Shown here in pieces: positions 23,706-25,581 of a DNA stretch of 36,349 bases (position 1 is its first letter; every line of letters starts with the position of its first letter). Where the stretch lies: the NCBI GenBank assembly GCA_947453225.1, contig CANGFV010000008.1, forward strand, positions 1 through 36,349, read 5' to 3'. Below the pieces are notes generated by a model. It made no database searches. It saw only the letters and a program-made list of their open reading frames with translations, and was not told where the DNA came from. The translations under genes and the position numbers were made by a program. Source of the stretch: Pseudomonadota bacterium. GTDB lineage: Bacteria > Pseudomonadota > Gammaproteobacteria > Steroidobacterales > Steroidobacteraceae.

Positions 23706-24281
23706 ATGGAACCAATACGTTTAATTAAATCCAAAACCGTAGTACTGCCGTACTCTGACATCGACACTGATCAGATCATCCCAGCTCGGTTTTTAACGAC
23801 CACCACCAAGGCCGGCTTGGGGCAACATGCATTTTCCAACTGGCGCTATCTTGCCGACGCCAGCACCAATCCAGAATTCATCCTGAATCAAGACAGCGCC
23901 CGCGGCTGCAAAATACTCGTTGCCGGCAATAACTTTGGCTGCGGCTCTTCTCGTGAACATGCGCCCTGGGCCCTACTCGACTTTGGCTTCAAGGCTGTAA
24001 TTAGTACTGAAATCGCCGACATCTTCCGCAGCAACAGCCTTAAGAACGGTTTACTCCCGGTTGTTATTGATAAAGAAAACCATGCTTGGCTTATGGCCAA
24101 CCCTGGAACCGAACTGACTATCGACTTACAAAACAGCACCCTCACACTAGCCAATGGCAAAGCAGTGAGTTTCAAGATTGAGGGCTTTGCTAGATATTGC
24201 TTACTTAATGGCGTCGATGAACTCGGCTTCATCATGAATCAACTAGACACCATTCAACAATACGAACAGGCGCGCGCATGA
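23706..24281 (+). CDS. leuD: 3-isopropylmalate dehydratase small subunit
   Basis: A 191-residue partner of LeuC, forming the swivel domain of the dehydratase. It contains [13 protein letters not shown] near the N-terminus and the conserved [21 protein letters not shown] segment (near residue 76). E. coli LeuD is 201 residues, so this is full length. Its last bases overlap the leuB start (ATGA, four bases), indicating translational coupling. Confidence 0.97.
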
Positions 24282-25339
24282 GAGCAAAAATTGTAGTTCT
24301 ACCGGGTGACGGCATTGGCCCAGAAGTTACCGAGCAGGCGGTCCGCGTTCTTCAAGCTGTCGCCAAAAAATTTGGTCACCAATTTGAAACTGAAGAACAA
24401 CTGATCGGTGGCGCTGCTATTGATGCGACAGGTTCAGCTTTACCAAAACAGACTGAAACAGCCTGTAAACAAGCAGATGCGGTGTTACTTGGCGCTGTCG
24501 GCGGCCCTAAGTGGTCAGCCCCTGAAGCCAAGGTTCGTCCTGAGCAAGGCTTATTGGCCATTAGAAAATCGCTGGGACTGTTTGCCAATTTACGTCCAGT
24601 AACGCTTCACCCAGCATTGATGGATGCATCCACCATTAAACCTGAAGTACTCAAAGGCACCGACATCATGGTGGTACGGGAACTGACCGGCGGCATTTAC
24701 TTCGGCGAAAAAACTCGCACTGAAACTACGGCTAGCGACTTGTGCAGTTACTCTGTTAATGAAATTGAACGCGTCACTCGCGTTGCCGCCCAGTTGGCTC
24801 GCCAACGCCGTAAGCAATTAGTGTCCGTCGATAAAGCCAATGTGCTGGAAACCTCTCGCCTCTGGCGTAGCACTGTTGAAAAACTCATGAAGAGCGAATT
24901 CCCTGACATCCAGGTGGAGCACATGCTGGTGGATTCAGCTGCCATGCACCTAATCCGTCGTCCCTCAAGTTTTGACGTGATGGTCACAGAAAATATGTTC
25001 GGCGACATCCTTACCGATGAAGCATCGATGCTGGCAGGATCTTTGGGACTCCTACCTTCGGCTTCCCTTGGGGCTGGCACCCTAGGTCTGTACGAGCCAA
25101 TTCATGGCTCCGCCCCAGATATCGCCGGCAAGGGCCTAGCCAACCCCTATGCCACTATTTTGAGCGTAGCCATGCTAGTCAGACACTCCTTGAAGCTGGA
25201 AACCGAAGCGCAAGCCATTGAATCGGCTGTATCTTCTGCCATTTCAGAGGGCGTCAGAACCGCAGATATATCCGCAGGCGGCCCTGTGGCCAGCACCTCA
25301 GAAGCGGGCTCGGCTGTAGTGGCGCGTTTATCGCAATAA
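24278..25339 (+). CDS. leuB: 3-isopropylmalate dehydrogenase
   Basis: A 353-residue NAD-dependent beta-decarboxylating dehydrogenase producing the keto acid precursor of leucine. It begins [20 protein letters not shown]. Substrate and metal contacts lie in [12 protein letters not shown] and [20 protein letters not shown], and the NAD-binding part has [18 protein letters not shown]. The length is normal for the family. It overlaps leuD by four bases and is the last gene of the ilv-leu cluster. The likely terminator lies 212 bases downstream, beyond a structured segment. Confidence 0.97.
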
Positions 25340-25385: not shown

Positions 25386-25581
25386 ACAAAAAGACGCTTG
25401 CCAAGTCACCACCCTGAGGGAGTATGATGATCGCAACTCCCTCCTGTTTTGCGGAGTGTGTAATCAGACTTGGTGGAAAGAAGCGGTGTCAGGTTAGTCC
25501 CACGTTGATGCAATCACATCATCAAGACTCTAGTCTTCGTTGCCACATTTAGGCCGACCTAAACAGTCGGCCTTATTTTTT
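25386..25581 (+). ncRNA. Candidate structured RNA (sRNA or long leuB 3' UTR)
   Basis: About 195 bases with several nested stems and no open frame. An outer stem CCAAGTC (25401-25407) pairs with GACTTGG (25467-25473) and encloses GAGGGAGT/ACTCCCTC (25416-25423 with 25436-25443). TTGATG/CATCAA (25505-25510 with 25520-25525) and AAGAC/GTCTT (25524-25528 with 25533-25537) follow, then the terminator hairpin. A weak promoter-like pair precedes it (TTGTTT 25352-25357, TTAATA 25374-25379, 16-base spacing) within an A/T-rich stretch. GGA triplets occur at about 25419, 25453 and 25475. I recognise no known RNA family. It could equally be the untranslated end of the leu mRNA. Confidence 0.45.
25551..25581 (+). 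terminator. Strong intrinsic terminator after leuB/candidate RNA
   Basis: AGGCCGAC (25551-25558) pairs perfectly with GTCGGCCT (25566-25573) around a 7-nt loop, followed by TATTTTTT. The T-run is only on the plus strand, so it ends rightward transcription and does not serve dnaE, which ends at 25625 on the other strand. Confidence 0.92.

Follow-up and report, generated by a model that had tools for sequence, protein, structure and literature searches.

Between leuB and the convergently oriented dnaE gene of the window (the whole stretch of DNA analysed here, 36,349 nucleotides from a genome of the Steroidobacteraceae), we predicted a small RNA of approximately 147 nt on the plus strand, at positions 25435..25581. 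Judged from comparison between genomes, the segment at 25386-25581 holds a real small RNA gene that is specific to one clade and that no Rfam family matched at its threshold. The family is new to Rfam; in kind, it looks like an ordinary small regulatory RNA of bacteria, a class that is already known. The upstream gene leuB (24278..25339, plus strand; TIGR00169, 502 bits against a cut-off of 353) encodes 3-isopropylmalate dehydrogenase and is the last gene of leuC-leuD-leuB, and the RNA follows it directly in all 18 aligned loci.

The segment had been singled out in an earlier, sequence-only reading as a possible new small RNA with its own terminator. This proposal was supported by the presence of the RNA in 19 of 217 genomes of the family, by covariation, by a conserved −10 box and by the lack of an Rfam family at gathering score, and the location given for it, between leuB and dnaE, was confirmed. 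The segment stands above chance because it is conserved between genomes: a lack of conservation, which that reading had named as evidence against an RNA gene, was looked for, and the homologues were found to have kept both sequence and structure.

Predicted promoter, terminator and extent of the RNA

We placed the start of the predicted RNA at 25435 from the −10 box and its end at 25581 from the terminator. The −10 box of the predicted promoter (TATGAT, 25423..25428, plus strand) was present in all 18 aligned loci, including the window, as TATGAT in 15 and as TATCAT in 3, and it was located approximately 70–120 nt before the invariant GGUUAGUCC (18/18 loci). When the identity of the 12 loci of genus g4 was computed in 5-nt bins, the two bins at the −10 box reached 0.97 and 0.95, compared with 0.40–0.73 in the bins upstream of it. 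These values suggest, from conservation, that the RNA has a transcription start of its own.

A −35-like element, TTGCCA (25398..25403, plus strand), lies 19 nt before the −10 box. In 15 of the 18 loci, the distance from the start of the corresponding motif TTG[AC]C to the −10 box is 25 or 26 nt (a spacer of 19–20 nt), and in the two g17 loci it is 29 nt; among the 18 loci compared, the motif was absent upstream of the −10 box only from L033. The usual spacing between −35 and −10 elements is 17 nt, and a spacer of 19–20 nt is therefore longer. A simple sigma-70 scan, which allowed spacers of 16–18 nt, found no promoter site in this region of the window. The distance from the leuB stop codon to the −10 box was 83–90 nt in 16 of the 18 loci and 122 nt in the other 2, so that the spacer is of nearly fixed length in these 16 loci (within L017-L035), although comparison of the 12 g4 loci shows poor conservation of its sequence.

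The intrinsic terminator (25551..25581, plus strand), detected by a terminator scan, consists of a stem at 25551-25573 followed by TATTTTTT, and a terminator stem followed by a T-run was also found in the homologues. Between 25200 and 25800, four terminator-like sites were counted, including two on the plus strand, whereas shuffled sequences gave 0.5 on average. The plus-strand terminator described in the sequence-only reading was thus recovered, and the 3΄ end that it gave to the segment is correct. Its 5΄ boundary lies approximately 50 nt too far upstream, since conserved promoter-like elements occupy 25398-25428; likewise, the conserved elements are these, and not the A/T-rich, promoter-like stretch that had been noted before 25390.

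The same reading described nested stems of 7 and 8 bp. The inverted repeats are indeed present in the sequence (7 bp, 25401-25407/25467-25473; 8 bp, 25416-25423/25436-25443), but their left arms overlap the −35-like and −10 elements, respectively, so that they straddle the predicted promoter, and the homologues do not preserve them as RNA helices. Around the −10 box, an inverted repeat of 8 bp was found in the window, where 3 of 300 letter shuffles contained one as long, and in G003/L018 (0/300), with different letters in the two; in the other 16 loci, the repeat at this position reached only 3–5 bp. In the two genomes that carry it, such a repeat might serve as an operator, or it might have arisen by chance.

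Conserved secondary structure and covariation

Most of the stems on which the sequence-only reading relied proved to be wrong, and a conserved core and the terminator stand in their place. The core spans 25470..25548 on the plus strand and is supported by covariance-model matches in the 19 family genomes and by pair counts. It comprises an outer stem GUGG/CCAC (25473-25476/25543-25546), an inner stem (25480-25483/25535-25538), a GUC/GAC stem (25488-25490/25526-25528), a mini-hairpin GG-UUAGU-CC (25492-25493/25499-25500) and a variable, covarying hairpin (25506-25510/25517-25521). The UUAGU loop of the mini-hairpin (25494..25498), a candidate seed or binding site, is invariant in all 18 rows.

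We evaluated covariation in two alignments. In A7, a MAFFT alignment of 18 rows (L024 was left out, as its aligned stretch is the same as that of L023), 97.5% of cells paired, compared with 91.9% in shuffled alignments; double-change cells numbered 22 versus 7.1, and the covariation score was 0.273 versus 0.155, with none of 500 shuffles as high for either measure. Only 4 pairs had double changes, however, and 163 of 500 shuffles had as many; every double change fell within the variable hairpin. In the inner stem, variation is confined to one side (94.1% paired), and the outer stem, the GUC/GAC stem and the mini-hairpin say nothing about covariation because they do not vary. In A6, which contained the 14 rows of g4 and g17 (the four g1 rows were left out), we found nine double-change pairs (1/500 shuffles), namely five in the hairpin, three in the terminator helix and one in a 5΄ stem, and 91.0% of cells paired versus 87.8% in shuffles. 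Covariation is accordingly above that of shuffles on most measures, in a comparison where a structure drawn from the same sequences is favoured in the slide control and where kinship alone can lift rows above shuffles.

Two other consensus structures were given no weight. A helix GGGACU/AGUCCC, which appeared in one consensus fold of the g4 and g17 rows, was discarded, since g1 does not form it and several further rows interrupt it. Folding the full-length alignment of 18 rows to a consensus produced another structure, a weak one, in the region of the 5΄ part, and we relied on the core and the terminator.

Folding of individual sequences was less informative. The segment had been described as too folded for an ordinary 3΄ UTR; its single-sequence fold showed no clear excess over chance (z = −1.70), and because 11 of 200 shuffles folded as well, the folding of the window sequence alone is not evidence for an RNA. 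With 60 shuffles each, the predicted window transcript gave z = −1.08 and the window core without the terminator z = +0.12, and predicted transcripts across the homologues ranged from −1.1 (the window) to −5.2. For three of the four g1 rows (the window, G001 and G003), the core without the terminator was no more stable than shuffled sequences (z = +0.04 to +0.59).

Phylogenetic distribution and origin

A DNA search of 40 genomes, including the window's own, matched five, of which four belong to the genus of the window (g1) and one to g17. A pattern built from two conserved blocks occurred in 6 of 217 genomes of the family, and the reversed control gave 0. The covariance model of the core (R1) matched 20 of the 217; one match (G175/L036, E = 2.4e-4) was judged to be due to chance and dropped, as the core letters are missing from it and the surrounding sequence reads as coding. 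The remaining 19 genomes represent 3 of the 25 genera of the family, namely g1 (4/4 genomes), g17 (2/2) and g4 (13/14), with one match per genome. The g4 genome G195 gave no match with R1 or in a laxer run. That run, which covered 19 family genomes with 150 candidates each, yielded three matches with E values of 0.18–0.62, which we attributed to chance because GGUUAGUCCC is missing from the aligned letters.

We extended the search with a second model (R2), using 11 first-look candidates per genome and strict filters. Within the order, R2 matched 17 of 371 genomes, all in the same three genera (3/73) and none beyond them. Among 370 genomes of the class, drawn evenly from a larger group, 2 matched, both of which were already known. 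Scans of this breadth depend on a limited first look and may overlook weak relatives, so that the lack of matches elsewhere should not be taken as absolute. Sixteen stretches were returned when titled genome contigs were scanned with a pattern; R2 confirmed 14 of them, and two (L054 and L065) were dropped because the model did not match. The named bearers were Povalibacter uvarum, Peristeroidobacter agariperforans, Peristeroidobacter soli, Steroidobacter gossypii and metagenome-assembled genomes of Steroidobacter or Steroidobacteraceae. At least three of these stretches are the same records as G001-G003, and the scan therefore adds names more than independent cases.

To the Steroidobacteraceae, these searches add a well-delimited small RNA family, for which a covariance model and a predicted promoter are now available. 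Of 30 relatives, 26 yielded a LeuB, and 23 of these 26 leuB loci (all except those of the window, G001 and G003) were scanned with the filters off; the loci L078 and L087 are cut by contig ends. G006 and G002 alone gave strong matches, the best of the remaining matches scored 17.1 bits (E = 0.03), and in the 23 loci scanned, those of other genera contained no strong match after leuB. In a LeuB tree of 39 rows, rooted at the midpoint, the 18 RNA-bearing rows lay on one side of a branch with a support of 100/99, which was recovered in 100% of 200 bootstrap trees; a single gain of the RNA therefore fits. With an origin that can be placed on the tree and no strong match behind leuB in the loci scanned from other genera, the locus offers a compact case for the birth of a small RNA gene at the 3΄ end of a biosynthetic operon.

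Comparison with known RNA families

We searched the window and 17 homologue loci against Rfam 15 (4227 models), and nothing reached the gathering score in either; a hit to a known family, the other result that the earlier reading had named against its proposal, thus did not occur. A permissive scan of the window returned eight weak matches, all below threshold, and the permissive scan of the homologues behaved likewise. The best permissive match was the Betaproteobacteria toxic small RNA RF02278, at the terminator end (25532-25580; 22.9 bits, E = 0.016); its cut-off of 50 bits is far above this score, and the shared part is in essence the terminator hairpin. 6S RNA, which had not been recognized in the earlier reading either, was rejected because the RF00013 match of this genome is located elsewhere, on contig C45 (64 bits).

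Among known classes, the leuB RNA resembles the Hfq-dependent trans-acting small RNAs of Gammaproteobacteria: it is intergenic and about 150–200 nt in length, has a predicted −10 box of its own, an intrinsic terminator with a U-tract and C/U-rich unpaired segments, and the genome encodes hfq. However, it matches no Rfam member of that class at gathering score, and its core is more structured and more invariant than a simple seed needs. In the open-access literature, we found no paper on a small RNA at the leuB locus and no small RNA study of Steroidobacter or its family; a passage in one paper names Steroidobacter denitrificans among the genomes that match a Paracoccus small RNA (PMC5107571).

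Proposed function and alternative explanations

The reading to which we lean, with somewhat better than even confidence, is that of a small RNA gene with its own transcription and its own terminator, which the ancestor of one Steroidobacteraceae clade acquired a single time behind leuB, which has been kept in a single copy and whose product acts in trans by base-pairing. Hfq is encoded in the genome (PF17209, 103.5 bits). The UUAGU loop has a mean unpaired probability of 0.75–0.93 over the 18 rows (0.54–0.82 in the window), and a second conserved segment, AAAUCUCCAU, seen mostly in g4 rows, is unpaired with a probability of approximately 0.6–0.9. Near the predicted 5΄ end lies the C/U-rich ACUCCCUCC (25436..25444, plus strand), a candidate anti-Shine-Dalgarno segment, and 17 of 18 transcripts, all but that of G001, contain CUCC in their 5΄ part. 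From the presence of Hfq, the conserved unpaired segments and, more tentatively, the 5΄ CUCC, we favour a base-pairing RNA, which would most likely be assisted by Hfq and act on ribosome-binding regions. The folded core and the terminator might stabilize such an RNA, and Hfq would probably bind its U-tract. The exposed UUAGUCC loop, the anti-Shine-Dalgarno-like 5΄ segment or both could then pair with the ribosome-binding regions of mRNAs and lower the translation of these targets, on which the wider meaning of the RNA depends.

The terminator at 25551..25581 probably also ends the leuCDB mRNA, and part of the RNA may consequently come from read-through. Indeed, a terminator-like site between leuB and the promoter was found in only 1 of the 18 loci (L033), so that read-through from leuB is likely. 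This leads to a rival interpretation, in which the RNA has no promoter of its own but corresponds to the 3΄ UTR of leuCDB together with its terminator, from which processing might release a stable fragment. Like the small RNAs derived from 3΄ UTRs, it lies at the 3΄ end of an operon, whose terminator it shares; its constant position right behind leuB in the 18 loci, the nearly constant distance of the −10 box from the leuB stop codon in 16 of them, the lack of an intervening terminator in 17 and the poor −35 spacing are all compatible with such an origin. The conserved −10 box, which suggests a separate start, distinguishes it from that class: upstream of the RNA, conservation is highest at the box and does not extend to the remainder of the spacer, and in L033 the terminator-like site precedes the predicted promoter. 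We regard derivation from the 3΄ UTR as possible but rather unlikely. The role in binding CsrA/RsmA that had been suggested from GGA triplets fits the data far less well. The 1.86-Mb genome contains two csrA genes (G000:C43:15765-15920 and G000:C78:1731-1886), and the leuB RNA is, like the sponges RsmX/Y/Z and CsrB/C, an intergenic RNA with stem-loops, but it lacks their repeated GGA loops. The predicted transcripts have only one to three GGA each (two in the window), and the one GGA common to the 18 aligned rows lies at the outer stem with its GG paired; without several GGA in exposed loops, a sponge was rejected, and we consider it highly improbable. Equally remote is a gene for a small protein. 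An ATG-led frame, CC-AUG-UCUCGACC, is open in several g4 sequences, and a GTT-AGT frame of 38 codons from stop to stop crosses the core in the window. The latter shrinks to 15 codons in G002, however, the g4 ATG reading is shifted in L032 and L033, its ATG is missing in L034, and in its upstream part it does not keep the same phase as in g1. As the frames differ between homologues, this explanation was rejected. The earlier statement that the segment has no open frame thus holds in that no frame across the core is common to all 18 rows, although the 38-codon frame does cross it in the window.

A further interpretation attributes the invariance of the core to binding of a protein or ligand, instead of base-pairing with targets. 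The junction stems and the UUAGU loop are invariant in 18/18 rows, in contrast to the variable hairpin and 5΄ part, as might be expected of a binding structure; invariance within one young clade can also mark a seed, however, and neither a matching known family nor, for a riboswitch, a fixed downstream gene was found. We consider such a core unlikely, and it is similarly doubtful that the outer stem, the GUC/GAC stem and GG-UUAGU-CC form the dedicated protein- or ligand-binding module of a new family, coupled to transcription of the leucine operon by its position at the 3΄ end. A cis-acting leader or riboswitch was rejected because the downstream neighbours vary, with no fixed type of same-strand gene in the loci whose frames were read. 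In the window, G001 and G003, the RNA is followed by dnaE, which is encoded on the opposite strand. G002 has an mfd-like gene in the same orientation, approximately 500 nt further on, whereas the neighbours are again on the opposite strand in G019, G148, G189 and G193 (a metB/metZ-like gene) and in G188 (an enoyl-CoA-hydratase-like gene; names other than the dnaE of the window are from a reading of translations). Separately, in G034, a relative from the same order, a SAM riboswitch (RF00162, 80.9 bits; L091, 1307-1438, minus strand) was found after leuB, before a gene whose start reads as metB/metZ-like.
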